Positions 8,662 to 53,237 of a DNA stretch of 64,000 bases are shown here, piece after piece. The position numbers were made by a program, and so were the translations under genes. Origin of the DNA: an unicellular cyanobacterium SU2 (GTDB lineage: Bacteria > Cyanobacteriota > Cyanobacteriia > Cyanobacteriales > Microcystaceae); contig NEED01000002.1 of assembly GCA_002110465.1 (NCBI GenBank), forward strand, positions 62,001 to 126,000, given 5' to 3'. The notes under the pieces are model-generated. The model saw only the letters and a program-made list of their open reading frames with translations, was not told the DNA's origin and ran no database searches. The stretch's first letter is position 1; each line of letters opens with the position of its first letter.

Positions 8662-9315
8662 ATGTCGATGACAAACTTTTTTACAGCAGGGGGCATAGTC
8701 GCTTGGCCGTTACTGGCCTTTTCTTTGTTAGGGGTTGCCCTAATTATCGAAAGGATTAGTTTTTGGTATCGCATCAAATCTCGTCAGCATCAAGTTATCA
8801 CGTCGGTGTTAAGACTCTATCAAGGAGATGAATTAACAGGGGCGATCGCTAAACTTAAACAAAATGCTGATTTACCCGTGTGTCGTATTTTTTTAGACGT
8901 TTTGGGGTTACACGGTGCCACACCGACAGAATTTCGTTTAGCGTTGGAAACATCTACTCAAGCGGAATTACCCCTTTTTAAGCGATTTAATAATTTATTT
9001 CAGACAATTATTGCTGTTGCTCCTTTATTAGGTCTATTAGGGACAATTTTAGGCTTAATGCGCTCTTTTGCCTCTTTAGAAATTGGGAATGCTGCTGGAA
9101 CGAATGCCACGGCAGTTACCGGAGGAATCTCAGAGGCCTTAACTTCTACGGTTATGGGGTTAGTTTTGGCGATCTTTACCCTCTTATTTGCTAACTCATT
9201 TCGTTCTTTGTATCTCAGAGAACTGGCTTTAATCCAAGAATATGGAGGTCAATTAGAACTTTTATACCGTCGTTTTCACGAAACAGGAGAAAAAACCTAT
9301 GCGTCTTCCCGATGA
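8662..9315 (+). CDS. exbB: ExbB/TolQ-type proton channel subunit
   Basis: Inner-membrane subunit of the ExbB-ExbD motor, which turns proton-motive force into TonB movement. 217 residues with three membrane segments: about 10-30, 110-135 (TIIAVAPLLGLLGTILGLM) and 150-178 (ALTSTVMGLVLAIFTLLF), the usual MotA/TolQ/ExbB fold. Start at the first ATG of ATGTCGATG. The end overlaps exbD by 17 bases, a coupled pair. It leads the iron-uptake region, and the receptor 10169 lies downstream, which favours an ExbB rather than TolQ role. Confidence 0.88.
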   Translation: MSMTNFFTAGGIVAWPLLAFSLLGVALIIERISFWYRIKSRQHQVITSVLRLYQGDELTGAIAKLKQNADLPVCRIFLDVLGLHGATPTEFRLALETSTQAELPLFKRFNNLFQTIIAVAPLLGLLGTILGLMRSFASLEIGNAAGTNATAVTGGISEALTSTVMGLVLAIFTLLFANSFRSLYLRELALIQEYGGQLELLYRRFHETGEKTYASSR

Positions 9316-9703
9316 AATGGAAACGGCAGCAGAAATTAATATTGTGCCAATGATTGACATTATTTTCTCAATTTTGGCTTTCGTTATTATTTCTACCCTG
9401 TTTTTGACCCGTTCTGAGGGTTTACCCATTAATTTGCCCTCCGCGAAAACAGCCGAACCACAACAAACCAAACAGATTAATGTGACTATTGAGCCTGATG
9501 GCGATATTTTTGTTGATCGTCAGCCCACAGAAGTTAATAACTTAAAAAGTTTAATAACTGGTTTAATTGGCGAAAATCAGCAAGGTTTAGTGATTATTAA
9601 CGCCGACAAGCAAGTGGATCACGGTCGTGTTGTTACGGTTATGGATCTGGTTCGCCAAGTTCCAGAGGCCAAATTAGCGATCGCTGCTAAAAAGTCAAAT
9701 TAA
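9299..9703 (+). CDS. exbD: ExbD/TolR-type biopolymer transport protein
   Basis: Partner of ExbB in the TonB energising complex. 134 residues: short cytosolic N-terminus (MRLPDEMETAAEINIVPMID), one membrane segment about 20-42 with the essential proton-carrying Asp in PMIDIIFSIL, then a periplasmic domain (INVTIEPDGDIFVDRQP, VINADKQVDHGRVVTVMDLV). AGGAG upstream lies inside exbB. The overlap with exbB implies a fixed translation ratio. Confidence 0.9.
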   Translation: MRLPDEMETAAEINIVPMIDIIFSILAFVIISTLFLTRSEGLPINLPSAKTAEPQQTKQINVTIEPDGDIFVDRQPTEVNNLKSLITGLIGENQQGLVIINADKQVDHGRVVTVMDLVRQVPEAKLAIAAKKSN

Positions 9704-10168: not shown

Positions 10169-12682
10169 ATGAATTTAGATAGACAAAACTTAGTACCTGG
10201 ATTATTAACTACTGCGATCGCAGTATGTATTGCGCCTTCAGTACAAGCACAAATCAGTATTACCAATATCCAAATCAACCCAACAGATAGAGGGATAGAG
10301 ATCATCTTAGAAACTCCACCAGGAGTCGATCCCCCTATTTTTTCAGGAAGTTTCGGGACGACTTTTTTTGCTGAAATATCCAACGCCCAATTGAACTTGT
10401 TGACAGAGGGAGACTTTCTCCAAGAGAACCCCGCAGAAGGGATTGAAAGTATTAGGGTGACTCAACAACCGAATAACGTGGTTGAAATCACCGTTATTGG
10501 TAGCGAAACCGTACCAGTGGTAAATCTCAATCAAGAAGAGGGACGACTGGTATTGAGTTTAGATACCATCGAACAACCTCCAGACACTGAAACCGAACAA
10601 ACCCCAACCGAAGAAACGACAGAAGGGGAGGATGACGAAGCGATCGAACTGGTAGTGACTGACGAAGCAGAGGGAAGTCGCTATTTTAACCCCAATGCAC
10701 CTGGATCTGGTCGTACCGCCGTAGGAACTGATACACCCTTAAGGGATATTCCTTTTTCAGTTCAGACAGTTCCCGAAGAAGTGATACGAGATCAACAGGT
10801 GATCCGTCTTGATGATGCACTCAGGAATGTTAGTGGGGTACAACAAAACCAAGCCGATCCCAGGGGTCAACGGTTTCAAATACGGGGTTTTGACAGTTCT
10901 AGTATCGTACGAGATGGATTTCGGCAAACCTTTGGAAGAACTGGAAATAGCGGGTTTCAGGACTTAACTAATGTAGAAAGCGTGACTGTTTTAAAAGGTC
11001 CGGCCTCTATTTTGTACGGTGCATCAGAACCTGGGGGGGTGATTAACATTGTTACCAAACAACCTCAAGAAGAACCCTTTTATGAAGTACAATTTCAGGC
11101 TGGAAATCGAGGCTTTTTGAGTCCTACCATTGACTTCAATAGTCCTCTCAATGCTGATAAAACCTTACTCTATCGTATCAATTTTTCCTATCGCAACGAA
11201 GAGAGTTTCCGAGATTTTGATACTTATGTAGAGCGAAAATTTGTTGCTCCTAGTTTGACATGGAAACCGTTAGAAAATACAAAATTAACCCTCAATGTAG
11301 AGTATTCTGACGATGATCGCCCTGGTGATTTTGGGGTACTTGCCTTTGGCGATCGTGTAGTAGACACGCCTAATGCTCGTGTTTTTGGAGAACCTCAAGA
11401 CTTTTTAAGAGCAGAAACCTTAAGGGTTGGCTATAAATTTGAACACGAATTCAGTGATAACTTTAAGTTTGAAAATGCCTTTACCTATTTACGTTACGAT
11501 ACAAAGTTTGTTACAGCTTTTGCTCTAAATGTTGATGAACCAACGACCACTCTGTTTCGAGGTTTTACCGAAGCCGATCAACCCAGTACCAACTACGAAA
11601 TGCAAAGCAAATTAATCAGCAATTTTAATACTTGGTCAGTGAAACATAAAGTTTTATTGGGAGTGGATCTTAACCGCAGAGAACAATTAGGTAATTTAGT
11701 CAGAGCAGATTTCAATCCTCGTTCTTTGATTCCTCTCAATATTTTTGATCCGGTTTATGGACTGGTTCCTTTTCCCCCTGATTTTAATCAATTCCCTCGC
11801 ATTAGTTCAAGTGATAATCAATGGGATCGACTGGGGATTTCTTTTCAAGATCAGATTGAATTTTTTGATAATCTTAAGGTGGTTGCAGGGTTTCGTTACG
11901 ACAGTGTAGAACAAGAAATTGACAATTTTATCACTGGAACAGAAACAGTACAGTATGATGATGCTGTTTCTCCGAGGGTAGGGGTTGTTTATCAACCCAT
12001 AGAAGAAGTATCTCTTTATGGTAGTTATGCGGAATCTTTCTTTCCTGGTTCGGGGTTAGTTGAAGACGGTCAATTTGCAGAACCGGAAACCTCTGAACAG
12101 TATGAAGTCGGTATTCGGGCGGAACTTTTTAACCAAAGACTGTCTTTTAATTTGGCTTATTTCGATATTACCAAAAATAATGTTTCCACCAGTAACCCTC
12201 TTTTTCCTAACTTTGTCCTTCCCATCGGTGAACAAAATAGTCGCGGTGTTGAATTGGATATTATTGGGGAAATTATTCCTGGTTTAAACGTTGTTTTTAA
12301 CTATGCCAATATTACTGCAGAAATCACCGACGATACTGATGTTAGTCTCATCGGAAATCGTCTGTTTAATGTTCCTGAACACAGTGCGAATTTATGGTTA
12401 ACTTATCGAATTCAAGACGGCTTTTTTGAGGGGTTAGGATTTGGTGGTGGTTTTAACTATGTTGATGATCGTTTCGGAGACAACGATAATACTTTTCGTC
12501 TCGAAGGTTATACCTTAGGGAATGCAGCTATCTTTTACGAAAGAGATAATTGGCGGTTAGCTTTGAATATCAGAAATGTTTTCGATAGAAACTATATTCA
12601 AGGAACTGATAACACCAGAGTTAGAGAAGTTTATCCAGGGGAACCGTTTACAGCTATTGGCTCTTTGTCCATTACATTTTAA
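10169..12682 (+). CDS. TonB-dependent siderophore receptor with AMIN domain
   Basis: Outer-membrane gated channel for ferric siderophores, energised by TonB-ExbBD. 837 residues. Signal peptide 1-27 (ending SVQAQ), AMIN domain about 28-130 (ITNIQINPTDRGIEIILETP), an acidic Thr/Glu linker, plug domain about 185-300 (VPEEVIRDQQVIRLDDALRN; GFDSSSIVRDG; VLKGPASILYG), then a 22-strand-type barrel ending in the C-terminal aromatic SITF expected for outer-membrane insertion. The AMIN domain at the front is common in cyanobacterial receptors. Two FecB lipoproteins follow. The FhuA/FpvA-like class is likely; the ligand is unknown. Confidence 0.93.
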   Translation: MNLDRQNLVPGLLTTAIAVCIAPSVQAQISITNIQINPTDRGIEIILETPPGVDPPIFSGSFGTTFFAEISNAQLNLLTEGDFLQENPAEGIESIRVTQQPNNVVEITVIGSETVPVVNLNQEEGRLVLSLDTIEQPPDTETEQTPTEETTEGEDDEAIELVVTDEAEGSRYFNPNAPGSGRTAVGTDTPLRDIPFSVQTVPEEVIRDQQVIRLDDALRNVSGVQQNQADPRGQRFQIRGFDSSSIVRDGFRQTFGRTGNSGFQDLTNVESVTVLKGPASILYGASEPGGVINIVTKQPQEEPFYEVQFQAGNRGFLSPTIDFNSPLNADKTLLYRINFSYRNEESFRDFDTYVERKFVAPSLTWKPLENTKLTLNVEYSDDDRPGDFGVLAFGDRVVDTPNARVFGEPQDFLRAETLRVGYKFEHEFSDNFKFENAFTYLRYDTKFVTAFALNVDEPTTTLFRGFTEADQPSTNYEMQSKLISNFNTWSVKHKVLLGVDLNRREQLGNLVRADFNPRSLIPLNIFDPVYGLVPFPPDFNQFPRISSSDNQWDRLGISFQDQIEFFDNLKVVAGFRYDSVEQEIDNFITGTETVQYDDAVSPRVGVVYQPIEEVSLYGSYAESFFPGSGLVEDGQFAEPETSEQYEVGIRAELFNQRLSFNLAYFDITKNNVSTSNPLFPNFVLPIGEQNSRGVELDIIGEIIPGLNVVFNYANITAEITDDTDVSLIGNRLFNVPEHSANLWLTYRIQDGFFEGLGFGGGFNYVDDRFGDNDNTFRLEGYTLGNAAIFYERDNWRLALNIRNVFDRNYIQGTDNTRVREVYPGEPFTAIGSLSITF

Positions 12683-12754: not shown

Positions 12755-13840
12755 ATGTTTACTTTAATTAAAACCATAAAATGGATATTTTTGACAACGA
12801 TTACTGCTTTAGTGATTATTGCTTGTAGTCCTTCTAATCCTACCTCTCAACAGACGGCTAATCCTCCTTCTAATTCTACAGATTGCCGAATGATTGAACA
12901 CCCTGGGGGTAACACTGAAATTTGTGGTCAACCTGAAAAAATTGTCGTTTTAGGACCTTATCCTTTAAATTTATTATTGTCTATAGATTATCAACCAGCA
13001 GCTTATGCTGATCCAGTCAGACTCAATTCAAAAGATATTTTTGATCAGCCTGCTCAACAAATTCCTTATCTCGGCACTCATATTACAACTCAACCGATCA
13101 ATTTAGGCACATCATCAAATCCATCCCTAGAAAAATTAACTCAACTTAAACCAGATATTATTTTTGGGCAAATTGGAAATAAAGAGAACTACAACTTATT
13201 AACACAAATTGCTCCAACTATAATTATTGAGAATCGCCCAGGAAATCGCCAATGGGCGCAAACCCTTAGACAAATGGCAAAAGCCCTCGGAGATGAGGAA
13301 AGGGCAGAAAAAGTTATTTCAGCCAATCAACAATTAATAGACTCAGCCCGTCAAGATTTAGCTTCTATAGTGGAAAAACACCCTAAAATTTTAATCTTAG
13401 GAACCAATGACTTACAAGATAGAATGATTTTAATTAATTCTGACACTTATTTAGGTCAACTTATGGAAGAAATTGGCTTTAAAATAGTTTCTTTACCCTC
13501 TACAAAAGCCAATTTGCCAACTGTTCCCATTTCTATTGAAGCATTACCTCAACTTAATGAGGCTGATATTATTATGATTTTAGGATTCAACCTCAAAATT
13601 AGTGAAGAAGACGTTCAACAAGCTTCAGACAAAAAATCCCTTGAGTCTTTACTGGAAACAAATCAGCTAAAAGAAACAAAAAAAAGCTGGCAAGAAAATA
13701 AAATTGCTCAATCTCTTACTGCCAGTCAAGAGAAACAAGTCTATTTTACAAGTTATTATGCTTGGCATGGATTAGCTGGTCCTTATGGGACAAAATTAGT
13801 TCTGCAACAACTAAGAGACTTTTTACTAACTGATTCCTAA
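12755..13840 (+). CDS. iron-siderophore ABC transporter substrate-binding lipoprotein (FecB/FepB-like), copy 1
   Basis: Periplasmic, membrane-tethered binding protein that hands ferric siderophore to the FecCD permease. 361 residues; lipoprotein signal with lipobox VIIAC (Cys24). The TroA/Fhu-type fold shows EKIVVLGPYPLNLLLS near residue 65, the LEKLTQLKPDIIFG strand and the C-terminal YYAWHGLAGPYGTKLVLQQL. It shares DCR-IEH, EICGQP and ISIEALPQLNEADII with the next gene, so the two are a tandem duplication. The permease genes lie about 8 kb downstream. Confidence 0.9.
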   Translation: MFTLIKTIKWIFLTTITALVIIACSPSNPTSQQTANPPSNSTDCRMIEHPGGNTEICGQPEKIVVLGPYPLNLLLSIDYQPAAYADPVRLNSKDIFDQPAQQIPYLGTHITTQPINLGTSSNPSLEKLTQLKPDIIFGQIGNKENYNLLTQIAPTIIIENRPGNRQWAQTLRQMAKALGDEERAEKVISANQQLIDSARQDLASIVEKHPKILILGTNDLQDRMILINSDTYLGQLMEEIGFKIVSLPSTKANLPTVPISIEALPQLNEADIIMILGFNLKISEEDVQQASDKKSLESLLETNQLKETKKSWQENKIAQSLTASQEKQVYFTSYYAWHGLAGPYGTKLVLQQLRDFLLTDS

Positions 13841-13898: not shown

Positions 13899-14981
13899 AT
13901 GTTCACCTTTATTAAAGCCTTAAAGTTTACAATCATAGCAATTTTTACCTCCTTGGTAATTATTGCTTGTAGTTCTTCTGATACAACAGTTCAACAAACC
14001 CCTAATAACAATCAATCTAATAACGATTGTCGAACCATTGAACACGCTTTAGATACCACAGAAATTTGTGGTCAACCTGATAAAATTGTCGTCCTTAGTC
14101 CTCATCATCTCGACTTACTCTTATCTTTGGGTTATCAACCGGCAGCTTATGGTTTTCCCTTCGCCACGCCGGGAAGTCCTCAACCTGGAGATAAATTTGA
14201 TAATCCCTCTCAACAAATTCCCTATTTAGGGGAACAAGTAACCACACAACCTGTTAATTTGGGTTTAGGGAGTAAACCCTCTTTAGAAAAATTAGCAGCC
14301 CTAAAACCGGACGTAATTTTTGGGGAAATAAGAAATCAAGAAAGTTATGATCTTCTCAAACAAATTGCCCCTACTTTTATTTGGAATGTTCGTACGGTTG
14401 GGGGACAATGGCAAGAAACCATCAAAGATATGGCCAACATTTTAGGGGATGAAGAAAGAGCAGAAAAAGCGATCGCTATTCATCAAAAAGCTATTGATTC
14501 GGCCCGTAAAGAGTTAGCTTCTGTAACGGAAAAATACCCGAAATTGTTGCTTTTAGGGATGAGTAATTTACAAGACCAAGTGCTTGTTATTCAACCAGAT
14601 ACTTATCTAGGAGAAGTAATGCAAGGTGTGGGTTTTGAGATGGTTTCTTTACCCTCTGTCGAGGCAAAAAGCCCGACTTTTCCCATTTCTATTGAAGCAT
14701 TACCCCAATTAAATGAAGCCGATATTATTATCGTTTTGGGTTACAATCCAAACTCAGAAGAAACCATAGAAAGTTCATCAGAAAAGTCTCTTGATTCTTT
14801 TGTTCAAAATAGTCAGTCAAAATCGGCTCAAACAGCTTGGCAAAATAATAAAATTGCCAACTCTCTAAAAGCCAGTCAAAATGAACAAGTTTACTTTACA
14901 ACTTATTATCTTTGGAATGGATTAAATGGACCGAATGGCACTCAATTGATTCTAGATGAATTACGAGAATTTTTACTATAA
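13899..14981 (+). CDS. iron-siderophore ABC transporter substrate-binding lipoprotein (FecB/FepB-like), copy 2
   Basis: Paralogue of the gene just upstream (58-base gap), 360 residues, also with lipobox VIIAC at Cys24. It has DKIVVLSPHHLDLLLSLGYQP, LEKLAALKPDVIFG and the C-terminal YYLWNGLNGPNGTQLILDEL. Differences from copy 1 concentrate in the segment after the first strand (FPFATPGSPQPGDKF) and in binding-cleft loops, as expected if the two bind different ligands. The MFS gene starts 2 bases after its stop, so the three form one operon. Confidence 0.9.
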   Translation: MFTFIKALKFTIIAIFTSLVIIACSSSDTTVQQTPNNNQSNNDCRTIEHALDTTEICGQPDKIVVLSPHHLDLLLSLGYQPAAYGFPFATPGSPQPGDKFDNPSQQIPYLGEQVTTQPVNLGLGSKPSLEKLAALKPDVIFGEIRNQESYDLLKQIAPTFIWNVRTVGGQWQETIKDMANILGDEERAEKAIAIHQKAIDSARKELASVTEKYPKLLLLGMSNLQDQVLVIQPDTYLGEVMQGVGFEMVSLPSVEAKSPTFPISIEALPQLNEADIIIVLGYNPNSEETIESSSEKSLDSFVQNSQSKSAQTAWQNNKIANSLKASQNEQVYFTTYYLWNGLNGPNGTQLILDELREFLL

Positions 14982-18771: not shown

Positions 18772-20376
18772 ATGAGTCTTTCTAATTTTTGTGTTGAACA
18801 GCGTCACCAAGAAAAAGAAACCCTCAAAAAAATAGTCCTTTATGGGCTAGGAGGTTCTGTTATTCTGCATTTTGGGCTAATTGTGGCTTTAAGCTTCTTA
18901 CCTGAAACAGAACAAGTCACCGCAGAACCCATTGAACTGATTTTTGTTGAAGAACCCGAACCCGAACCCGAACCTAAACCCGAACCTGAACCCGAATTAG
19001 AAACAAAATTAACCCCCGAACCCGAATCCGAACCTAAACCCGAACCTAAAGAAATCCAAGAACTGGCACAATCATTACAAAGCTCTCAACTATCATCAAA
19101 GCCAGTTCAACAGCCCCTGCCTCCCATACCCAATCAACCCGAAGTCGCCCCAACTCCCCCTTCTCCCGTATCACAAAATACCGCAGCCCCCGAACCAGAA
19201 CCAGCCCCCGAACCAGCCCCAACTATTCCTCAACCCTTAGCTAATTTACCTTCTACGCCCTTTCAACAACCTGTAGAACAAGAAATTCAACCAGAAGTAG
19301 AAACCCCCAAGCCGACTGAAACTATATCAGAACCCCTTGTTAGTCGCTCTGTTCCCGATCGCCCTACCGTAAGCTCTAATCCTCTAAGCAATACCTCTGA
19401 ATCTATGACAGAATTAAGCGATCGCGTGCGCGGCAATCCATCATCGTCTTCTTCTCCAGAAAGTAGCAATGTCTCAGGAAACCCGTCTTCTCCTGGTTCT
19501 GTTACCGCCAATCGTTCTAAACCCTCTGGTAGCGGTACGACCACTCAAGCTCTCAACTCATCCTCTTCTGGAGGAGTGGGACAACTCAGACAAGGGTTAA
19601 GCGGTGGCAATAACAGTTCAGCCCCAGGTAGTAGCAGCAGTGGCAATAATCCTGCAAGCCCTGGCAGTGGTGGGGCATCTGCTGCTAATCGTGGAGTTCC
19701 CACAAAACCCCAAGGAAATTCATCAGGGGAAAGCACCTCCGGCTCAGGTTGTACTCCCCCAGGAAAACCCGATTTTCCTTCCTCTTTAGCTAATCAAGGC
19801 ATTGAAGCGCGGCCTGTGGTCGAAGTAGTAACTAATGCTAGTGGCAGCGTCGTTAGTGCCAATATTAAGTCATCGAGTGGCTATCCAGCTTTGGATAAAC
19901 TTGCTATCAATACTGCCAGAAATGTTCGCTGTCCTGCCGGTAACAGAAGAAGATTACAGTTAGCTATTAGTTTTGCTCAAGAGGGTAGTAATTTTGCAGA
20001 AGAAGCCAGACACAGACAAGAAGAATTAGAACGACAGCGACAAGAAAAAGAACGTAAAGCCGAACTTGAGAGACAACGTCAAGAAGAAGCTAAACGCCAA
20101 GCTGAACTTGAGCAACAACGCCAAGAAGAAGAAGCTAAACGCCAAGCTGAACTTGAGCAACAACGCCAAGAAGAAGAAGCTAAACGCCAAGCTGAACTTG
20201 AGCAACAACGCCAAGAAGAAGAAGCTAAACGCCAAGCTGAACTTGAACGACAACGCCAAGAAGAAGAAGCTAAACGCCAAGCTGAACTTGAGCAACAACG
20301 CCAAGAAGAAGAACCTAAACCAGAACCTTCGACTAATGAACTGTCACCCTTAGAAACCCTGCCTCAAGCAGAATAA
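18772..20376 (+). CDS. tonB: TonB-like energy transducer with extra C-terminal coiled coil
   Basis: Links the ExbBD motor to outer-membrane receptors. 534 residues: cytosolic start, one membrane anchor about 25-43 (GGSVILHFGLIVALSFLP), a Glu-Pro/Lys-Pro periplasm-spanning region (55-100), a Pro/Ser/Gly-rich stretch to about 325, then a TonB_C-type domain about 325-405 (ARPVVEVVTNASGSVVSANI; SSSGYPALDKLAINTARNV). Oddly, some 130 residues follow, mostly tandem RQEEEAKRQAELEQQ repeats forming a charged coiled coil; TonB_C normally ends the protein. The MORN gene follows after 36 bases. The family is firm, the tail's role unknown. Confidence 0.85.
   Translation: MSLSNFCVEQRHQEKETLKKIVLYGLGGSVILHFGLIVALSFLPETEQVTAEPIELIFVEEPEPEPEPKPEPEPELETKLTPEPESEPKPEPKEIQELAQSLQSSQLSSKPVQQPLPPIPNQPEVAPTPPSPVSQNTAAPEPEPAPEPAPTIPQPLANLPSTPFQQPVEQEIQPEVETPKPTETISEPLVSRSVPDRPTVSSNPLSNTSESMTELSDRVRGNPSSSSSPESSNVSGNPSSPGSVTANRSKPSGSGTTTQALNSSSSGGVGQLRQGLSGGNNSSAPGSSSSGNNPASPGSGGASAANRGVPTKPQGNSSGESTSGSGCTPPGKPDFPSSLANQGIEARPVVEVVTNASGSVVSANIKSSSGYPALDKLAINTARNVRCPAGNRRRLQLAISFAQEGSNFAEEARHRQEELERQRQEKERKAELERQRQEEAKRQAELEQQRQEEEAKRQAELEQQRQEEEAKRQAELEQQRQEEEAKRQAELERQRQEEEAKRQAELEQQRQEEEPKPEPSTNELSPLETLPQAE
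20080..20310 (+). repeat. 45-base in-frame tandem repeat inside tonB
   Basis: About five units of 45 bases (the first is 42) encode RQEEEAKRQAELEQQ. Units are almost identical at DNA level, including third positions, which points to recent expansion or ongoing homogenisation. Confidence 0.9.
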
Positions 20377-20412: not shown

Positions 20413-21474
20413 ATGAAAAAACAAACCTTTAGAAAAATTATTTTTGCCATTTTAACCACAGCCAGTTTTGAAGTTATTAGTCATTTTAATCATTTATTGA
20501 TAGCCCAAGCAGCCGTTATAACCTTACCCGATGGTGGTCGTTGTGAAGGAGAAATAAAGGAAGGAAGTCTCAATGGTGAAGTTGTTTGTAACTATACCAA
20601 TGGTGATAAATATGAAGGGAATTTCACTAATGGCAAAAAAGACGGACAAGGACAATATACCTTTGCTGATGGTGGCACTTATAAAGGAGAATTTAGTAAC
20701 GGGAATATCAGTGGTCAAGGAATAAGAATATTTCCTAATGGAGATAAATATGAGGGAGAGTTTGTTGACGGGAAACCTCACGGTCAAGGAGTATATAGTT
20801 TAAGTGATGGGGCTAGTTATAAAGGGGAATTTATTGAAGGAAATCCTCAAGGAGAAGGAACCTTTATTTTTGCGAATGGAAATCAATGTTCTGGGGAAGT
20901 AAGTAACGGGAGTGTTAATGGACAAGGAAAGTGTCAGTATCAAAATGGAAATAGTTATGAAGGAGAATTAAAAGATGGTCAACCTCACGGAAAAGGAAAA
21001 TATACTTTCGCTGAAGGGGGAAGTTATGAAGGGGAATTTCAAGACGGTAAATTTCATGGCCAAGGAATAAGAACTTACGATAATGGAAATAAGTATCAAG
21101 GGCAATTTAGTCAAGGAAAACCAAATGGAAAAGGAGAATTAGTCTTTGCCAATGGAAATCGTTATAAGGGAGAATTTCAAGACGGTAAATTCAATGGACA
21201 AGGGGTTTATGCTTTCGCCAACGGAAATCGTTATGAAGGGGGATTTCAAGACGGTAAATTCAATGGACAAGGGGTTTATGCTTTTGCCAATGGCGATCGC
21301 TGTGAGGGAGAATTTCAAGCAGGTCAATTAAACGGTAAAGGAATCTGTAAATATTCTGACGGCGATCAATATAAAGGACAATTTAAAAATGGAGAACAAC
21401 ATGGAGAAGGACTTTATATATTTGCTGATGGCACACAAGTAGAGGGAACTTGGGAAAATGGAAAAATGAAATAA
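20413..21474 (+). CDS. exported MORN-repeat protein
   Basis: 353 residues with a signal peptide (about 1-33, ending IAQA|A), then 13 full and one partial MORN units of 23 residues (pattern YEGEFQDGKFNGQGVYAFANG) filling the rest. MORN repeats form an elongated beta sheet that binds lipids or proteins; in bacteria the role is rarely known. GTAGGAGATTGAATC precedes the ATG. It lies 36 bases after tonB and 62 before fecD, so it is probably part of the iron operon. There is no catalytic domain. Function here is unknown; a periplasmic scaffold is one guess. Confidence 0.88.
   Translation: MKKQTFRKIIFAILTTASFEVISHFNHLLIAQAAVITLPDGGRCEGEIKEGSLNGEVVCNYTNGDKYEGNFTNGKKDGQGQYTFADGGTYKGEFSNGNISGQGIRIFPNGDKYEGEFVDGKPHGQGVYSLSDGASYKGEFIEGNPQGEGTFIFANGNQCSGEVSNGSVNGQGKCQYQNGNSYEGELKDGQPHGKGKYTFAEGGSYEGEFQDGKFHGQGIRTYDNGNKYQGQFSQGKPNGKGELVFANGNRYKGEFQDGKFNGQGVYAFANGNRYEGGFQDGKFNGQGVYAFANGDRCEGEFQAGQLNGKGICKYSDGDQYKGQFKNGEQHGEGLYIFADGTQVEGTWENGKMK
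21171..21308 (+). repeat. 69-base tandem duplication inside the MORN gene
   Basis: Two adjacent MORN units (21171-21239 and 21240-21308) are nearly identical in DNA (GAATTTCAAGACGGTAAATT and GGGGTTTATGCTTT in both), unlike the other diverged units. A recent single-repeat gain is likely. Confidence 0.8.
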
Positions 21475-21536: not shown

Positions 21537-22541
21537 ATGAAAAAAAGACAGCGATCACAGAAGTTATTATTTTCTGGCTTAATTATTGGTTTCTGTTTAT
21601 TAGTAATTTTTTTTGCCATTAATATTATAGTTGGTGTTGCTAATATCTCATTAAATGATATTTATCAATCCTTATTTAATTTTGATGGCTCAACAGAACA
21701 TTTAATTATTCGGACAGTCAGATTACCGCGATCGCTAATTGCTTTATTTGTGGGAGCAGCCCTAGCAGTTTCAGGAAGCTTAATGCAAGGTATTACAGGC
21801 AATCCTTTGGCTTCTCCAAGTATTTTAGGAATTAATGCAGGGGCTTCTTTTGCTGTTGTTTTATCCACTTTTATAATGAGTAATAACTCATCAAATTTCC
21901 ACACAGGATTTGCCTTTTTAGGAGCAGCCATTACTGCAATTGTCGTTTATAGCATTGCTTCACTAGGTAGGGGAGGGATAACCCCCTTAAACCTAACCCT
22001 TGCTGGAGCCGCATTAAGTGCTTTTATGGGTTCTTTAACCAGTGGTATTTTAATTGTTAATCAGCGAACTTTAAGCGAAATTCGTTTTTGGTTAGCTGGC
22101 TCATTAGGAGGTAGAGACACGGAACTATTTTTGCAAATTTTGCCCTATTTAATCTTGGGATTATTGTTAGCATTTACCCTAGGAAAACAGATTACAATTC
22201 TTAGTTTCGGGGATGATATTGCCCTAGGATTAGGACAAGAAACTATTTGGATAAAAGTTCTGGCTGCTGTTAGTGTTGTCTTATTAGCAGGAGCCAGTGT
22301 TTCCCTAGCCGGTCCTATTGGCTTTATTGGCTTAATTATTCCTCATATGATCCGCTTTTTAATCAGTGTTGATTATCGTTGGATTGTTCCCTACAGTGCT
22401 ATTTTAGGGGCAATTTTATTGCTAATTACTGATACCATTGCGCGTGTCATTATTCAACCTCAAGAAATTCCTGTTGGCTTAATTATGCCACTAATAGGAA
22501 GTCCTTTTTTTATTTTTTTAATTCGTAAGAAAATCCAATAA
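21537..22541 (+). CDS. iron-siderophore ABC transporter permease (FecCD family), subunit 1
   Basis: 334 residues, about nine or ten membrane segments, BtuC/FecCD fold. Motifs: TVRLPRSLIALFVGAALAVS, GNPLASPSILGINAGASFAV and the cytosolic coupling region GPIGFIGLIIPHMIRFLI. First of three genes permease-permease-ATPase, with gaps of 33 bases. Works with the FecB lipoproteins at 12755/13899 to pass ferric siderophore into the cytosol. The pair forms a heterodimer in related systems. Confidence 0.93.
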   Translation: MKKRQRSQKLLFSGLIIGFCLLVIFFAINIIVGVANISLNDIYQSLFNFDGSTEHLIIRTVRLPRSLIALFVGAALAVSGSLMQGITGNPLASPSILGINAGASFAVVLSTFIMSNNSSNFHTGFAFLGAAITAIVVYSIASLGRGGITPLNLTLAGAALSAFMGSLTSGILIVNQRTLSEIRFWLAGSLGGRDTELFLQILPYLILGLLLAFTLGKQITILSFGDDIALGLGQETIWIKVLAAVSVVLLAGASVSLAGPIGFIGLIIPHMIRFLISVDYRWIVPYSAILGAILLLITDTIARVIIQPQEIPVGLIMPLIGSPFFIFLIRKKIQ

Positions 22542-22574: not shown

Positions 22575-23615
22575 ATGAATAATAGCTGGTTAACTTTTCG
22601 ATTTTCCAAAGTTCCCTTATCATTTCGATTAGAGCGGAACGTTCCCATGGTTTTGGGAAGTTTATTGATATTAACTTTTATCGTCATTATTTTTAGTGTG
22701 TCTCAAGGAGAAAAGTTTATTGAGCCAGTTGATACTTTAAAAATACTTGTGGGATTAGATGTTAATAATTTAGAAGATGCTTTTATTATTAAGACTTTAC
22801 GAATTCCTAGGACATTAGTTGCATGGTTAGTCGGTGTAGGATTAGCGATCGCAGGTACTATTATCCAAGCTATTACTCGAAATCCTTTAGCGGCTCCTGG
22901 TATTATTGGAGTCAATGCAGGAGCGGTATTAACATCTGTAATATTCTTAATTCTTTTCCCCTCTTTTTCTATAGTAATGCTTCCATTTACTGCCTTTTTA
23001 GGCGGGTTAATTGTATCTATTTTAATTTATTTATTAGCTTGGCAAAAAGGAACCTCCCCCATCCGTTTAATTTTGGTTGGAATAAGCTTTAACTTAATAG
23101 CAAGTTCCTTAACCAATTTGATGACAACATTTGGAGAAATCAATCGCGTTTCTCAGGCATTAGTCTGGTTAACCGGAAGTGTTTATGGACGTAGTTGGGA
23201 ACATTGTCTGACTCTATTTCCCTGGATTTTAATGGGTAGTATCATCGCTTTTTTAATGGCTTCTGAGTTAAACACCCTACACTTAGGAGATGATATTGCT
23301 AAAGGGTTAGGAAGTCCTGTGGAATGGCAACGAGGAGCATTGTTATTAGTCTGTGTGGCGTTAGCGGGGGCTTCAGTCGCAACGGCAGGGGCGATCGGGT
23401 TTGTTGGTTTTATGACACCCCATTTAGCGCGTCGGTTGGTAGGTGTGTCTCATCAAGGATTATTGCCCACTGCTGCCATAATGGGTGGATTAATAGTGGT
23501 TTTGGCGGATTTATTGGGTCGATTATTATTTGCCCCCATTGAAATCCCTTGCGGCATTATTACTGCTATAATTGGCGCACCCTACTTTATTTATCTTCTT
23601 ATTGTTAATCGTTAA
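22575..23615 (+). CDS. iron-siderophore ABC transporter permease (FecCD family), subunit 2
   Basis: 346 residues; second half of the permease pair. Motifs: TLRIPRTLVAWLVGVGLAIA, RNPLAAPGIIGVNAGAVL and GAIGFVGFMTPHLARRLVG. It has a hydrophilic N-terminus of about 30 residues (NNSWLTFRFSKVPLSFRLER) before the first membrane segment. 33 bases after subunit 1 and 33 before the ATPase gene, so one operon. Confidence 0.93.
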   Translation: MNNSWLTFRFSKVPLSFRLERNVPMVLGSLLILTFIVIIFSVSQGEKFIEPVDTLKILVGLDVNNLEDAFIIKTLRIPRTLVAWLVGVGLAIAGTIIQAITRNPLAAPGIIGVNAGAVLTSVIFLILFPSFSIVMLPFTAFLGGLIVSILIYLLAWQKGTSPIRLILVGISFNLIASSLTNLMTTFGEINRVSQALVWLTGSVYGRSWEHCLTLFPWILMGSIIAFLMASELNTLHLGDDIAKGLGSPVEWQRGALLLVCVALAGASVATAGAIGFVGFMTPHLARRLVGVSHQGLLPTAAIMGGLIVVLADLLGRLLFAPIEIPCGIITAIIGAPYFIYLLIVNR

Positions 23616-23648: not shown

Positions 23649-24455
23649 ATGAATTATAAATCTCTAATAAAAAGTCAATTAGAAGCCAACAAAATAACTA
23701 TCGGTTATGATAATAAAAAAATTATTGTCGATCTTAATTTAGTTATTCCTCATCAAAAAATCACCATTCTTGTTGGCTCTAATGGCTGTGGAAAATCTAC
23801 CTTATTAAAAGGACTTGCTAGAATCTTAAAACCACAGCAAGGAACAATTTATTTAGATGGCAAAGCAATTTCTAAATTACCAACCAAAGATGTAGCCAAA
23901 CGATTAGGAATACTGCCACAAAATCCTAAATTTCCTGAAGGGTTAACGGTAAAAGATTTAGTAGCTCAAGGACGGTATCCTTATCAAAATTGGTTTCAGC
24001 AATGGTCAAAATATGATGAGGAGTTAGTGACAAAAGCATTAATTAATACAGACTTATTATCTTTAGCTGATCGTCCCTTAGACAGCCTCTCAGGAGGACA
24101 AAGACAACGCGCTTGGATAGGGATGTCTTTAGCTCAAGATACAGATATTTTATTATTAGATGAACCGACTACTTTTCTAGACTTAGCTCATCAAATTGAA
24201 ATTTTAGACTTACTTTACGAACTCAATCGGAGTCGCAAGAAAACGTTAATAATGGTGTTACATGATCTTAACTTAGCCAGTCGTTATGCTGATTATTTAG
24301 TAGCAATGCGAGAAGGAAACATTTATGCTCAAGGTAAACCGGACGAGATCATGACAGAAACGATTATTCAAGAAGTATTCAACTTAGAATGTCACATTAT
24401 CCGTGATCCCGTAACCCAAACACCCATGTGTATTCCTATTAAGAAAAAAAGTTAA
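23649..24455 (+). CDS. iron-siderophore ABC transporter ATP-binding protein (FecE-like)
   Basis: 268 residues, complete ATPase: Walker [10 protein letters not shown] (about 43-51), Q-loop around LPQNP, signature [10 protein letters not shown], Walker [16 protein letters not shown] and switch His in MVLHDLN. Last gene of the importer operon; powers the FecCD pair. Its end is 3 bases from the end of the convergent SLC13 gene, leaving no room for a separate terminator. Confidence 0.95.
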
Positions 24456-37057: not shown

Positions 37058-38629
37058 ATGAAATCCACTGAAAACATACCTAAGGAATTCTCAGAGTCAG
37101 AGCCTCAGTTTGACCAAGAAAAGTCAAGAATAAGAATTGGATCTGCTCAGAAAAGCTTAAAAAAGCTTAAATTACTGAGATGGTTGGTCGCCATTGGAAT
37201 TTTAGGTGGAGGGGTCGGTATCTGGCAAATATTGACTCCTTCCTCAGTGCCAACAGCCCAAACCATCAGCCAAAGCCCACCCCCTAGACCGGTTGAAACG
37301 ACAAAATTAGCCCTGGGGACAAACAAGAGAGAGGTTAGACTATTAGGACAGATAGAAGCTGAAGGACAAGCCACCTTAAGTCCTCAAATTGACGGGACAG
37401 TTCAACAAATTTTAGTCAAAGAAGGCGATCGCGTCACCCCAGGAATGACCGTAGCCATCCTTGATGATGCAGACGCTAAAATTGCCCTAGCCCAAGCCAA
37501 AGCGAGATTAGTCCAAGAAAAAAGTAATTTAGCCAAATTACAAGTAGGAACTCGCCTGGAAATTATTGAGCAACGACAAGCCGAATTACAAGCAGCCCAA
37601 GCCAGAGAAAAAGAAGCACAAGAAAATCTTCAGAGTTTAATAGCCCTACAACCCGACTTAATTGCCCAACGTAGTGCCGAACTCGAAGCCGCCATCGCAC
37701 GGGAAAAAGAAGCATTAGATAACCTCAGAAGAATTGAAGGGTTAAGTCTAGAAGGGGCTTTGTCAGAGAGGGCATTAGTTGAAGCTAGATCGGTTGCTGA
37801 TACTGCCCGTAGTGAGCGATCGCGGGCTGAAGCTGCCCTAACAGCCCAAGAAACAGAAAGCCTTCAAGATATTGCTCAAGCCAGAACCCGTCTTGATAAT
37901 GCCAAAAGCGATCGCCTGCGTATTACGGCGGTGTTAGCAGAAGCTAAAGCAGGTCCTAGACCAGAAGAAATTGAAGCCCAAAAAGGTGTCGTCAGTGCTA
38001 CTCAAGCTGCTGTAGAACAAGCTGAATTAGCCATGAAACGCGCCAAAATTACAGCCACCTTTGGGGGAATTGTTCAATCACGGGAGGTTGATCCTGGAGA
38101 CTATGTCGAAGTCAATGATCCGATATTAACGTTAGTCAGCGATCGCTCTTTGGATATCTTTTTAGAAATTCCTGAAACCCTAAGCGGACAAGTGAGTAGA
38201 GGAATGACGGTCAATTTATTTGCCCGCGCCCTACCTAATTGGCAAAAAACAACAGAAATTACCGCAGTTATTCCCACAGCTAATACTGCTTCTCGCCGAC
38301 AATTAGTTAGAGTAACCTTAGATAATCCTCCCCAAGAATTATTACCAGGCATGGCAATTCAAGCAGATTTAATGATGCCAATAACGGATACTAATACCTT
38401 TACTGTACCGCGAGATGCTTTAACCCGACGGGGAGATAAATGGTTATTATTTACCGTTGATAATAATCAAGCCCAACAAGTAGAAGTAGAAATGGTTGGG
38501 GATTTTGGTAAAGAAGTTTTGATTACTAATCCTTTGTTAGAAAAAGGTCAATCCATTGTTATTAAAGGAGGAGATGGACTTCAAGATCAAACGACTGTAA
38601 AAGTTGTGAATAGTGTAATTGATAGTTAA
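37058..38629 (+). CDS. RND efflux periplasmic adaptor (HlyD/AcrA family)
   Basis: 523 residues. Anchor segment about 37-58 (LLRWLVAIGILGGGVGIWQI), first half of the lipoyl domain GQATLSPQIDGTVQQILVKE, a very long alpha-helical hairpin of about 170 residues (Ala/Gln/Glu repeats with two arms), second lipoyl half KITATFGGIVQSREVDPGDYV, then beta-barrel and membrane-proximal domains. It is longer than AcrA (about 400) because of the hairpin. First gene of an adaptor-DoxX-pump operon; no outer-membrane channel gene follows. Confidence 0.92.
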   Translation: MKSTENIPKEFSESEPQFDQEKSRIRIGSAQKSLKKLKLLRWLVAIGILGGGVGIWQILTPSSVPTAQTISQSPPPRPVETTKLALGTNKREVRLLGQIEAEGQATLSPQIDGTVQQILVKEGDRVTPGMTVAILDDADAKIALAQAKARLVQEKSNLAKLQVGTRLEIIEQRQAELQAAQAREKEAQENLQSLIALQPDLIAQRSAELEAAIAREKEALDNLRRIEGLSLEGALSERALVEARSVADTARSERSRAEAALTAQETESLQDIAQARTRLDNAKSDRLRITAVLAEAKAGPRPEEIEAQKGVVSATQAAVEQAELAMKRAKITATFGGIVQSREVDPGDYVEVNDPILTLVSDRSLDIFLEIPETLSGQVSRGMTVNLFARALPNWQKTTEITAVIPTANTASRRQLVRVTLDNPPQELLPGMAIQADLMMPITDTNTFTVPRDALTRRGDKWLLFTVDNNQAQQVEVEMVGDFGKEVLITNPLLEKGQSIVIKGGDGLQDQTTVKVVNSVIDS

Positions 38630-38674
38630 TAGTTAATAGTTGATAGTTAATAGTTGATAGTTGATAGTTAATTA
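38621..38674. repeat. heptamer tandem repeat (STRR type)
   Basis: TAGTTAA/TAGTTGA heptamers repeated about seven times right after and including the adaptor stop. Such short tandem repeats are common between cyanobacterial genes and may vary in copy number. Confidence 0.8.
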
Positions 38675-49475: not shown

Positions 49476-52400
49476 ATGAATGCTGAAGAATTTTTACGGA
49501 GATATTTAGCTGGAGAAAGAGATTTTTCTGGTGCTAATTTACAAGGAATTAACTTAGAGGGTTCTCGTCCTATTAGAATTCCTCCTGTAAGTCCTCCCAA
49601 TACTTTAGATAATAATGAAAACCCACCTATAAGAAGACGAAGAAAACGGGGAAGTACCAATCAGGCAACTCAAGTCATTAAACTCTCAAGAAACGAAAGA
49701 TATGAGTTAAAAAATCTGAATTTAGCAGGTGCTAATTTACAAGGTGCTCATTTAGCTTGGATTGATTTAGCAAATGCTAACTTAACGGAAGCTAATCTTA
49801 AAAATACAACCTTGAGATATGTTAATCTGAATCATGCTAATCTAGCTCAAGCTGTTTTAAGTAATTCTTCTTTATATTCGTGTGATTTACAAAAAGTAAA
49901 CTGTCGAGATTCTATCATAAATGATTGTCATTTAGAAAATGTAAACTTAACAAAAACCATTTTCAAGAATGCTAATTTAGCAAAAACAAAAATTCAACGT
50001 TGCACCTTATACAACACTAATTTTGAACAGAGTAATCTGCAAGAAAGTTTATTATTATGGGGGGACAAAAGTCAGCAACTCAATTTCAATAATGCTGATT
50101 GCCAATTGATGAGAATTGAACAGGAGATAGCTGATACAACATTTATCAATTCCAATTTAAAAGAAGCTATTTTTTATTATTCCTCTTCATCAAAACTGAC
50201 TAGAATTAATTTTACTAATGCTAATTTAGAAAAAGTTATTTTTCAAGGTAATAATCGCAGTCTTACTTTAGAAGATATTGATTTTACAAACGCTAATCTA
50301 AAAGACATTAAAATCAATGGAGTTATCTTTAATCAAATAATATTTGATGGAGCTAATTTGAAAGAAATTAACTACCAAAATTGTTTATTCAATAAATTAT
50401 CTTTTGATGATGCTAGTCAACTCAATGAAACTTGGCAAATTGTTAAAGATTTATTAGAAGAGAGGAACAAAAATAAAGACTTAAAAGGGATTAATTTAAA
50501 CGGACTTGACTTGTCAGGAGTTAATCTTGATAATGTTAATTTAAGTAAGGCTAAATTAGGAGAAACTAATTTAAGTAATGCTAGTTTAGTTAATGCTAAT
50601 TTAGAAGGTGCAAACTGTCGGAAAGTTAATTTTGAAAAGGCTAATTTAAGCAAGGTTGATTTTAGCCATAATAACTTAATAGAAGCTAATTTTAAAGATG
50701 CAACTCTTGATCAAGCAAGTTTTGAAATTTGTCCCGGATTGTCTCAAGTTAACTTTGAAAATGCTAGTTTAATCCAAGTTCAATTTAAAGGATATCAGAA
50801 AGTTAAAGGAAGTTTCTACCAAGTAAATTTACAAAATGCCGATTTAACAGAAGCAGTTTTTGATGATATTTCGATGAAGGATATTGATTTAAGAGGTGCT
50901 AATTTAACAGATGTTACGTTTAAAAGAATTAATTTTGCTGAAGTAATGATCGACGAAAATACCAAAATTGATAGTAAATGGCGTAACATTTGGCGATTTT
51001 ATCATAATCAATTAGACACCAAAGACTTAAGTAATCTAGACTTAACTTTTACTGATTTAGCTAATTTAGATCTAAGTAACGTTAATTTAAGTAATTCTGA
51101 TTTACAACAAGCAAATCTAAGTGATTCCAATTTAGAGAATGCTAATCTTGAAAGAACCAATCTACTCAATGCTCAATTAAAAAGAGCAAAATTAAGAGGG
51201 GCAAAAATTAATAATAAAACAAGATTTAGTGCTAGAGATTTAAAAAGATGGAACGCAGAGAATATCAGCAATGAAACTATTGAAAGCTTAGAAGATTTGA
51301 AAAATTATTTTTTACAAAATGCTCAATTACCAGGAGTTAATTTAGAAGGAAAAGATTTAAGTAATGCCAATTTAGAAAATGCTAACCTTAACGGTGCGAA
51401 TCTTAGAAATGCTAACTTAGAAAATGCTAATTTATTAGGGACTAATCTAGAAAATGCTAACTTAGAAAATGCCAACATTAAAAGAGGTAAATTAGAAGCT
51501 ACTAATTTCATTAATGCTAATTTAATTAATGCTAATTTAAGTCAGGTTTCATGCCAATATGAAACGAACTTTAGTAATGCCAATTTGACACAAGTCAACT
51601 TTAGTAATAGCAATCTCAGTCATGTTGTAATGTGCCACACTAATCTGAAAAAAGCTGATTTTACTAATGCCTATATTGGTTATGATGTAGATGCAGGAGT
51701 GGGTTTTGAATGTGAGGATGATTTAAGTCAATGTATTGAATCAGATTTTACCCAAGCTAACTTTACCAATGCCACATTTCAAGGAGTAGTTTTTAATCAT
51801 TCTGATTTTACTGACGCTAATTTTAAAAATACTAAATTTCTTGAATATATTAATTTAGAAGGGGCTAATTTAACTAATTGCAATTTTAATGAATGTAATT
51901 TCAATCTTGAAAGTTTTGAATATTTTGATTATCTTAATTTAAAAAATGCAAATTTAAGTAATTGCAATTTATCTAACTTTGAATTTCCTCAAGAGTCAAT
52001 CTTAATTAATATTATCATTAATAAAAACACCATTATCACTGAGAAATGGCGTATAGTGGATGAAATTGTTAATAAAAACCGTCGAGAAAATTTAGCGAAT
52101 AAAGACTTATCTGGTGTTTATTTAAAAGATATTGATTTGAGTCATACTAACTTGAGAGGAATTAATTTTTCTAATGCCGAGTTATATAATATTAATTTTT
52201 CTGGTACGGATTTGACGGGTGCTAAGCTAGTTAACATCAGAATTGATGCAAAACGAATACAAATACCTGAGACAAAACTATATACAATTAAATCATCAAC
52301 AAACTTTAGTAATGCTAATTTAACCAATGCTGATTTATCCGGTACTAGCTTATCTGGTGTTAACTTACAAGGGGCTAATCTTACGGGTGCTAACTTAACT

Positions 52401-53237
52401 CATACTAAATTTTCTTATACTAATTTACAAGGGGCGAATTTAAGCAATACAGACTTAAAAGATGCTGACTTAACCGATGCTTTTTTAAAAGACGTACAAT
52501 TAGAAAATAATTCATCTTTGTCTATTTCAGAAATTATTAGAGAAAATATCAAAAAAATCATTCAAAAAATAAAAAAACAAAACTCTCAATCATCATTCAA
52601 ACAATTAATTAATAAATTAGAATCAGTTGGTTATAATCCTAAAAGTGATTTAGTGGGATTTGATTTAAGTGGGATGAACTTTTCCGATTTAGATTTGTCA
52701 GGATATAATTTACAAGACACTATTCTTAGTCAAGTTAAATTTAGTAATGTTAATCTCAGTCAAACGAATTTTACTAATGCTAATTTAGCTAAAGTCAACA
52801 TATCTGATTGCTATCTTAATGAAACAAACTTTACTAATGCGAATCTAAGTCATGCTTGGTTACTTTATTCTAAAAATTATGATCAACCTTTAACCAAAAC
52901 GAATTTTACTAAAACTAATTTAACTAATTGTAAATTTCAATGGGTTGAATTTGATCAATGTAATTTTCATCAAGCTAATTGTACAAAAACTATTTTTTCT
53001 GAGATCAAATCAATGGATAATTGTGATTTTAGTTATGCTAATCTAAAACAAGCAACATTGCAACTGGTTAGCTTAAAAAAATGTAATTTTTCCCATGCTA
53101 ACTTACAAGGAACAAATTTGCACAATCAAGTGAATATTACTGATGTTAAATTGACAGGAATTGTTTTTGATAAAAAGACTAATTTTTCTCCCCAATGGAA
53201 AGAGCTTTTGAATCCCAAAAATTCAAATAATAATTAG
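49476..53237 (+). CDS. giant pentapeptide-repeat protein
   Basis: 1253 residues made almost wholly of A(D/N)LXX pentapeptides, which coil into a right-handed quadrilateral beta helix. Starts MNAEEFLRRYLAGERDFSGA as many cyanobacterial members do. A basic, disordered insert (residues 30-70, RRRRKRGS) follows. The helix is broken by at least five similar helical linkers, e.g. NETWQIVKDLLEERNKNKDL, DSKWRNIWRFYHNQLDTKDL, TEKWRIVDEIVNKNRRENLA and SISEIIRENIKKIIQKIKKQ, dividing it into blocks. No signal peptide or catalytic domain. Role unknown. Confidence 0.92.
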   Translation: MNAEEFLRRYLAGERDFSGANLQGINLEGSRPIRIPPVSPPNTLDNNENPPIRRRRKRGSTNQATQVIKLSRNERYELKNLNLAGANLQGAHLAWIDLANANLTEANLKNTTLRYVNLNHANLAQAVLSNSSLYSCDLQKVNCRDSIINDCHLENVNLTKTIFKNANLAKTKIQRCTLYNTNFEQSNLQESLLLWGDKSQQLNFNNADCQLMRIEQEIADTTFINSNLKEAIFYYSSSSKLTRINFTNANLEKVIFQGNNRSLTLEDIDFTNANLKDIKINGVIFNQIIFDGANLKEINYQNCLFNKLSFDDASQLNETWQIVKDLLEERNKNKDLKGINLNGLDLSGVNLDNVNLSKAKLGETNLSNASLVNANLEGANCRKVNFEKANLSKVDFSHNNLIEANFKDATLDQASFEICPGLSQVNFENASLIQVQFKGYQKVKGSFYQVNLQNADLTEAVFDDISMKDIDLRGANLTDVTFKRINFAEVMIDENTKIDSKWRNIWRFYHNQLDTKDLSNLDLTFTDLANLDLSNVNLSNSDLQQANLSDSNLENANLERTNLLNAQLKRAKLRGAKINNKTRFSARDLKRWNAENISNETIESLEDLKNYFLQNAQLPGVNLEGKDLSNANLENANLNGANLRNANLENANLLGTNLENANLENANIKRGKLEATNFINANLINANLSQVSCQYETNFSNANLTQVNFSNSNLSHVVMCHTNLKKADFTNAYIGYDVDAGVGFECEDDLSQCIESDFTQANFTNATFQGVVFNHSDFTDANFKNTKFLEYINLEGANLTNCNFNECNFNLESFEYFDYLNLKNANLSNCNLSNFEFPQESILINIIINKNTIITEKWRIVDEIVNKNRRENLANKDLSGVYLKDIDLSHTNLRGINFSNAELYNINFSGTDLTGAKLVNIRIDAKRIQIPETKLYTIKSSTNFSNANLTNADLSGTSLSGVNLQGANLTGANLTHTKFSYTNLQGANLSNTDLKDADLTDAFLKDVQLENNSSLSISEIIRENIKKIIQKIKKQNSQSSFKQLINKLESVGYNPKSDLVGFDLSGMNFSDLDLSGYNLQDTILSQVKFSNVNLSQTNFTNANLAKVNISDCYLNETNFTNANLSHAWLLYSKNYDQPLTKTNFTKTNLTNCKFQWVEFDQCNFHQANCTKTIFSEIKSMDNCDFSYANLKQATLQLVSLKKCNFSHANLQGTNLHNQVNITDVKLTGIVFDKKTNFSPQWKELLNPKNSNNN

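Follow-up and report, generated by a model that had tools for sequence, protein, structure and literature searches.

A cyanobacterial TonB that continues past its receptor-docking domain into a tail with a conserved start and a predicted charged helix

A TonB protein of the unicellular cyanobacterium SU2 continues for 128 residues after a Gly-Ser junction (residues 405-406) that lies behind its C-terminal domain, and most TonB_C proteins in the cyanobacteria sampled likewise continue past the receptor-gripping domain, with which TonB is usually pictured as ending. The first part of the tail is conserved among related proteins, and in the sequences compared nothing points to a function more strongly than this start, of which the TonB described here is not the best example. 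We put it at an even chance that this is a siderophore-uptake TonB whose tail, we infer, steadies or positions the docked domain. All positions below refer to the window, that is, the whole stretch of 64,000 nucleotides that was analysed (assembly GCA_002110465.1, contig NEED01000002.1, positions 62,001 to 126,000 of the forward strand).

The tonB open reading frame runs from 18772 to 20376 on the forward strand (ATG start, 534 aa, from the ORF list of the window), and the encoded protein is laid out as follows:

18832..18900, forward strand: N-terminal hydrophobic anchor, residues 21-43 (read from sequence)
18922..19746, forward strand: Pro/Ser/Glu-rich periplasmic linker, residues 51-325 (composition)
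19765..19944, forward strand: TonB_C domain match, residues 332-391 (Pfam, NCBIfam, AlphaFold2 model, Foldseek)
19948-19965, forward strand: last TonB strand, residues 393-398 (AlphaFold2 model)
19984..20052, forward strand: junction, Gly-Ser (405-406) and first 21 tail residues (conservation in charged tails)
19993..20307, forward strand: single predicted alpha-helix, residues 408-512 (AlphaFold2, charge pairing)
20081..20320, forward strand: 45-bp tandem array (15-aa unit), 5.3 copies, 97% matches (Tandem Repeats Finder)
20308..20373, forward strand: Pro/Glu-rich C-terminal end, residues 513-534 (pLDDT <50 at model residues 195-215)

By profile and modelled fold the frame is that of a TonB. 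Pfam TonB_C matches residues 332-391 (profile positions 2-61 of 79) with 33.1 bits against a cut-off of 24.6, and NCBIfam tonB_Cterm scores 34.7 against 27.1. When the model was compared with solved structures using Foldseek, the top 17 matches were the C-terminal domains of TonB or of TonB homologues, three of them at E <= 0.001; the best was 9dc4_T (E 1.8e-05, TM 0.81 of the target), with 9ddz, 8rd6 and 1u07 next, and the matches included the receptor complexes BtuB:TonB (2gsk, E 4.7e-03) and FhuA:TonB (2grx, E 7.1e-03). Sequence alone gave a weak PDB match (9ddz, E 0.033). The earlier note, made from the letters of the DNA, had assigned the TonB_C domain and had allowed that the reading would fall if profile searches failed, or if orthologues lacked the tail and the gene proved non-functional; both curated cut-offs were exceeded, the fold resembles solved TonB domains, and most of the orthologues examined keep a tail. 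A frame artefact or pseudogene was ruled out by the intact frame and the conserved orthologues, and the tail can be taken as coding because close relatives carry an in-frame tail of other length and repeat unit. The linker (residues 51-325) is 19% Pro, 19% Ser and 11% Glu. As read from the sequence, the anchor holds S29, H33 and L40 in what is presumably the S-H-L-S spacing of E. coli TonB, with Pro at the fourth place. S-H-L-S is named as the motor-binding motif of TonB in the available part of PMC12204202.

The genes around tonB, all on the forward strand, are the following:

8662..9315, forward strand: exbB (Pfam MotA_ExbB)
9299..9703, forward strand: exbD (Pfam ExbD)
10169..12682, forward strand: TonB-dependent receptor; N-terminal AMIN domain (33-130), then plug and barrel (Pfam)
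12755-13840, forward strand: periplasmic binding protein gene 1 (Pfam Peripla_BP_2)
13899-14981, forward strand: periplasmic binding protein gene 2 (read from sequence)
20413..21474, forward strand: MORN-repeat protein, 353 aa (ORF and Pfam)
21537-22541, forward strand: ABC importer permease 1 (Pfam FecCD)
22575-23615, forward strand: ABC importer permease 2 (read from sequence)
23649-24455, forward strand: ABC importer ATPase (Pfam ABC_tran)

Since exbB, exbD, a receptor, binding proteins and a FecCD-type importer stand in one cluster, which also holds a gene for an MFS protein, it looks like an ordinary uptake cluster of the siderophore-iron type, and the earlier placing of this TonB in an iron-uptake cluster is thereby supported. 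AMIN is a peptidoglycan- or envelope-targeting domain. A search of the whole window for a canonical Fur box (three mismatches allowed) gave no match, which says little because such sites vary. Elsewhere in the window, a 1253-aa ORF at 49476-53237 carries 15-bp tandem repeats (consensus AATGCTAATTTAGAA) and resembles pentapeptide-repeat proteins, and a heptanucleotide ATAGTTA array of about 7 copies (38619-38672) starts at the extreme end of the ORF at 37058-38629.

E. coli TonB resembles the window TonB in the fold of its C-terminal domain (1u07, 1xx3, 2gsk, 2grx), in its Pro-rich linker and in its association with ExbB-ExbD; it terminates with the C-terminal domain, whereas the window TonB has 128 residues after the junction. 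TolA, a force transducer homologous to TonB, is described as having a helical and/or Pro-rich periplasmic stretch (PMC12204202, available part). That stretch sits between anchor and C-terminal domain and belongs to a tol-pal context, whereas in the window TonB the helix (408-512) comes later than the domain, and the genes scanned nearby are those for ExbB-ExbD, a receptor, a binding protein, an MFS protein and a FecCD-type importer; identity with TolA was ruled out by this domain order, with its Pro/Ser-rich linker and helix after the domain, and by the neighbours.

The tail of the window TonB is made largely of 15-residue units encoded by the 45-bp array, 45 bp being 15 codons (Tandem Repeats Finder score 459). 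AlphaFold2, run on the C-terminal part alone with an alignment of the window TonB and 24 rows from loci of the MORN-side search described below, returned the structure prediction that the earlier note had proposed: a TonB_C fold, then one helix spanning residues 408-512, then a low-confidence end (mean pLDDT 87.2 and pTM 0.53 overall; block means of 91-99 across model residues 91-190). The predicted helix has 105 residues and would be some 16 nm long at 0.15 nm per residue. Such a confident helix is support and not proof, because AlphaFold2 tends to make helices from charged repeats. The order of charges in the tail points the same way: opposite-minus-like charge pairs at i+3/i+4 amount to 59, where 400 shuffles give a mean of -1.0 (z 7.2). 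Long charged helix was the wording of the earlier note, and as a prediction it is borne out. Dense E/R/K with opposite charges at i+3/i+4 is what single alpha-helix (ER/K) domains display, and the E/R/K/Q-rich window tail has it as well, although its helix is only predicted; known domains of this kind are mostly eukaryotic and cytoplasmic.

Tails behind the TonB domain are frequent in cyanobacteria. A TonB_C match was found in 43 of 50 genomes of the window's family, and 47 of the 50 complete proteins other than the window's have at least 30 residues past the match (54 such matches were listed, of which four run off a contig). At the level of the order, an alignment termed A1 matched 262 of 388 genomes, a figure that favours tailed forms because A1 includes the first tail residues. 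A plainer sample, searched with TonB_C, gave a match in 167 of 195 genomes; among the matches listed, 69 proteins were chosen by hand (29 from earlier samples and 40 added), and 46 of these have at least 30 residues past the match and 23 have fewer, some of the counted residues belonging to the domain because the count starts at the profile's end. In other orders of the cyanobacterial class a tail was seen in 21 of 24 A1-type matches, to which the bias of A1 applies, and in other classes of the phylum all eight TonB_C proteins examined, out of many more matches there, have only 1 to 17 residues past the match. On these counts the tail appears characteristic of the cyanobacterial class, some members having lost it, and the search that the earlier note had suggested for other proteins of this order turned up many. 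Its statement that no TonB of this order had been described did not hold: in Anabaena sp. PCC 7120, TonB2, TonB3 and TonB4 have the same order, with an extension after the TonB-box-binding region, noted as ‘a C-terminal extension’ in the legend of Fig. 1, and TonB3 (all5036) is assigned to ferric schizokinen transport (PMC8597729, available part). A TonB with a post-domain extension is therefore a frequent architecture and, as far as the available text of that paper goes, one already partly in print; no description of the extension's sequence, structure or role was found in that text. In open-licence papers, no account was found of the charged helix, of the conserved start behind the docking strand, of the division of tails into charged, Arg-rich and Pro-rich kinds or of a TonB-MORN pair independent of the tail, nor any experiment on a TonB tail.

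The window's genome also encodes a second TonB_C protein (locus L045, 6140-7933 of contig C9) with a 238-aa tail of Pro/Thr-rich 25-residue repeats. Among the eight neighbouring ORFs scanned, the Pfam matches were of housekeeping type and none was an iron-uptake gene; TonBs like that of L045 recur across the window's family. Five genomes of the window's genus (G037-G041), four of them single-contig genomes of 2.5-3.1 Mb, appear to be without a siderophore-type TonB, because their A1 matches are weak (best E 2.6e-7) and their listed TonB_C protein is of this second class. At two loci (L154, 8404-9567; L162, 8102-8752) a partial second TonB-domain ORF lies right after tonB, like a local duplication.

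The tails were compared in 96 sampled TonB ORFs whose domain scored at least 55; of these, 91 have complete tails of at least 28 residues, four have shorter ones and one is cut by its contig. Tails in which REQKAL residues make up at least 0.70 of the first 60 were termed charged and the rest basic, these being mostly Arg/Ser-rich; across cyanobacterial TonBs the kinds of tail are charged, Arg/Ser-rich and Pro-rich. In a tree of 110 TonB domains over 87 columns (few for so many rows, so that many forks stay open; built without exact copies and without the cut row L139), the charged tails fall into one supported group of 46 rows, comprising 44 charged and two tail-less proteins (SH-aLRT 98), and one charged tail (L165) lies outside it. 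Conservation was measured against 200 shuffles in 35 charged tails, a set thinned so that the domains of its members are less than 85% alike. Of the 40 tail positions printed, 15 exceed all 200 shuffles, and 14 of those lie within positions 1-21. The mean frequency of the top residue is 0.67 over positions 1-10, 0.50 over 11-20, 0.37 over 21-40 and 0.33 over 41-60. The junction consensus reads GS-[DE]-F-[DE]-R-x-A-R, with F2 in 27, R4 in 32, A6 in 31, R7 in 28 and E14 in 31 of the 35 tails, and the G and S of the junction are invariant across the 13 rows of alignment A1. The short tails of 28-38 aa (L105, L121, L125) retain this conserved first part. The window tail, which starts NFAEEARHRQ, has the consensus residues F2, A6, R7, R9 and Q10 and keeps E14 and R15, and it has E in place of R at position 4, which is among the strongest positions. 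Basic tails (n=50, not thinned) have a start of their own, with R2 in 48, R4 in 46, E8 in 39 and R9 in 39 of 50.

Beyond the start, the picture is one of rapid change. The leading repeat periods of the rod vary by lineage (8, 11, 13, 15 or 17 residues), and two proteins with identical domains (L046 and L047) have tails of 124 and 86 aa. Judged from these sequences, the rod turns over fast in sequence and length, and past about 21 residues it is mainly composition that is kept. In charge order for helix pairing, every one of 45 charged tails exceeds its shuffled mean (z >2 in 22; median 1.99), as do 35 of 42 basic tails (z >2 in five; median z 0.89).

In solved TonB-receptor complexes, the TonB C-terminal domain docks the receptor TonB box with its last strand. 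By analogy, the window protein would be the energy-transducing TonB of a siderophore-iron system that docks in the same way. Its helix is predicted to start about 10 residues past the last strand, with a first part that is conserved among charged-tail TonBs, and to continue as a charged single alpha-helix of about 105 residues before a short Pro/Glu-rich end. Because the tail exits close to the docking edge, it would, when TonB is docked, lie close to the outer membrane on its periplasmic side. From its position, the conserved first part may make a specific contact there, be it with the receptor, the outer membrane or peptidoglycan. The variable rod may be a hydrophilic spacer in which charge and stiffness count more than sequence, so that the tail would steady or orient the docked domain within the peptidoglycan mesh while TonB pulls. 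Points against this reading are the E of the window tail at position 4 and the fast turnover of the rod. Nor is the tail needed for TonB function generally, because TonBs in the same gene context can be tail-less (11 of 24, see below).

A neutral low-complexity extension, whereby slippage lengthens a tolerated C-terminus of which only the short junction, or nothing, matters, is the alternative that fares best, and we regard it as possible without being probable. It would account for the 97% alikeness of the 45-bp array, which signals recent expansion, for the differences in repeat unit and length among close relatives, for tail types of very unlike composition in related clades, and for the short ends found in 4 of the 96 TonBs (<28 aa) and in 23 of the 69 plainer-sample proteins (<30 post-match residues, among the matches listed). 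It sits less well with the persistence of at least 30 post-match residues in 47 of 50 complete family proteins, with tail positions that beat every shuffle and cluster in the first 21, and with a charge order that stays above the shuffled mean in every charged tail, even if z exceeds 2 in only 22 of the 45.

The tail could also be a binding arm for the secreted MORN protein encoded next to it, the two forming a TonB-MORN complex; contact with this neighbour was an idea of the earlier note, and we now judge such an arm improbable. The N-terminal segment of the MORN protein reads as a signal peptide, its model is all-beta (mean pLDDT 90.0; residues 1-31 <50), and all 11 MORN matches of the genome (E <=0.001) fall in this one gene beside tonB, which would suit a dedicated partner. 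Of 41 charged-tail TonBs, 25 are followed on the same strand by a MORN gene no more than 1 kb downstream, as against none of 44 basic-tail TonBs (six more had too little sequence), in a sample drawn mostly with alignment A1, which contains the first tail residues. However, the other 16 of the 41 charged-tail TonBs are without one, and the contrast between tail types tracks clades: on a tree set with 29 charged rows accompanied by MORN, four of them from the MORN-side search, the supported branches yielded five independent pairs, a number too small to settle the matter (sign test p 1). The MORN-side search used a query (A2) built from MORN genes adjoining tonB, and the best 80 of 482 loci were scanned, 27 of them cyanobacterial by title and 53 from other bacteria. 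TonB stood directly upstream in 24 of these 27 cyanobacterial loci, with a charged tail in 13 and tail-less in 11; given how A2 was built, these 24 loci say nothing on MORN genes generally. The tail-less TonBs come from few lineages, mostly Oscillatoria/Laspinema and Microcoleus/Tychonema/Lyngbya relatives. With the cyanobacterial TonB model, no TonB domain was found at the other three of the 27 loci, which comprise a contig starting at the MORN gene, a case with a cut TonB-like ORF elsewhere and one with an upstream ORF that has a TonB-like start; nor was a TonB found with that model, which distant TonBs could escape, at the 53 loci of other bacteria among the best 80. The 11 tail-less TonBs rule out an exclusive link between MORN and charged tail as a functional rule and, because MORN also adjoins tail-less TonBs, the MORN protein is not established as the partner of the tail. 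Going by gene order, tonB and a MORN gene pair up repeatedly in cyanobacteria, whether or not the TonB has a tail.

Published expression data, which bear on a binding arm in that the two genes change alike, concern two strains. On plasmid pAQ7 of Picosynechococcus sp. PCC 7002, tonB is followed in turn by the genes for MORN, two permeases and an ATPase. The TonB encoded there (SYNPCC7002_G0090) has a charged tail as in the window; it differs in its junction (GT vs GS), and the PCC 7002-like tail of L127 has periods of 8 and 16 residues vs 15. Upstream of tonB on pAQ7 (L257, 8466-12000), receptor and binding protein are annotated in pieces, as if broken. In 5 mM acrylate, G0090 changed -4.08-fold and the MORN gene G0089 -4.02-fold, as did isiA and genes for flavodoxin, siderophore and FecCD-type functions by amounts of their own, a response that the authors discuss in terms of oxidative stress (PMC3788122); the iron reading of these changes is our own and not that of the source. 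In Synechocystis PCC 6803 without iron, slr1484 (tonB) and slr1485 rose 2.56-fold and 2.53-fold, and the two appear among the candidate targets of IutR1 (PMC11221513, in part); a parallel rise of the two during iron deprivation is also recorded in the accessible text of PMC3516471. This pair counts on the same side if slr1485 is the MORN gene, as we infer; its annotation is phosphatidylinositol phosphate kinase or salt-induced periplasmic protein in the source text available, and it is named among proteins accumulating under salt (PMC6584798, in part). These TonBs are listed in PMC2771747, in the portion available.

A two-stranded coiled coil that dimerises TonB via the tail is very improbable: long helical repeats are often coiled coils, and stripes were obtained for ILMVFYW only (at 95.6 degrees per residue, with 12 of 300 shuffles doing as well) and for Ala only (at 95.0 degrees, with 4 of 300), but these are not independent evidence, because any 15-residue repeat gives a 15/4 stripe (96 degrees) for a residue type, and all hydrophobics combined show no stripe (0.30, with 0.33 as the mean of the shuffles, of which 197 of 300 do as well). 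The best hydrophobic vector at any angle of 90-108 degrees was 0.30, vs 0.90 at 103 degrees in an ideal heptad control, and ILMVFYW make up 7% of the PG-free core. On the combined test a heptad coiled coil was rejected despite the two single-type stripes, and the coiled coil of the earlier note was not upheld. A charged single alpha-helix fits the window tail better, because the charge order is strong (z 7.2) and the combined hydrophobic stripe is lacking.

More broadly, and with considerable doubt on our part, cyanobacterial Ton machines may have an extra mechanical part unknown from proteobacteria: a conserved charged junction helix, just past the strand that docks the receptor, that would grip outer membrane, receptor or peptidoglycan during the pull. 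It would be prolonged by a rod whose kind differs between clades (charged single helix, Arg-rich or Pro-rich) and be joined, in many lineages, by a dedicated secreted MORN protein encoded within the same unit for iron uptake. A conserved element behind the docking strand may bear on how TonB force crosses thick peptidoglycan, and the tail can be removed cleanly in tractable laboratory strains. The TonB-MORN pair, which changes together with siderophore genes in PCC 7002, gives a clue to what a bacterial MORN protein may do. Should the tail prove dispensable, it would still be a clean case of a repeat-driven charged helix that is tolerated on a working machine.
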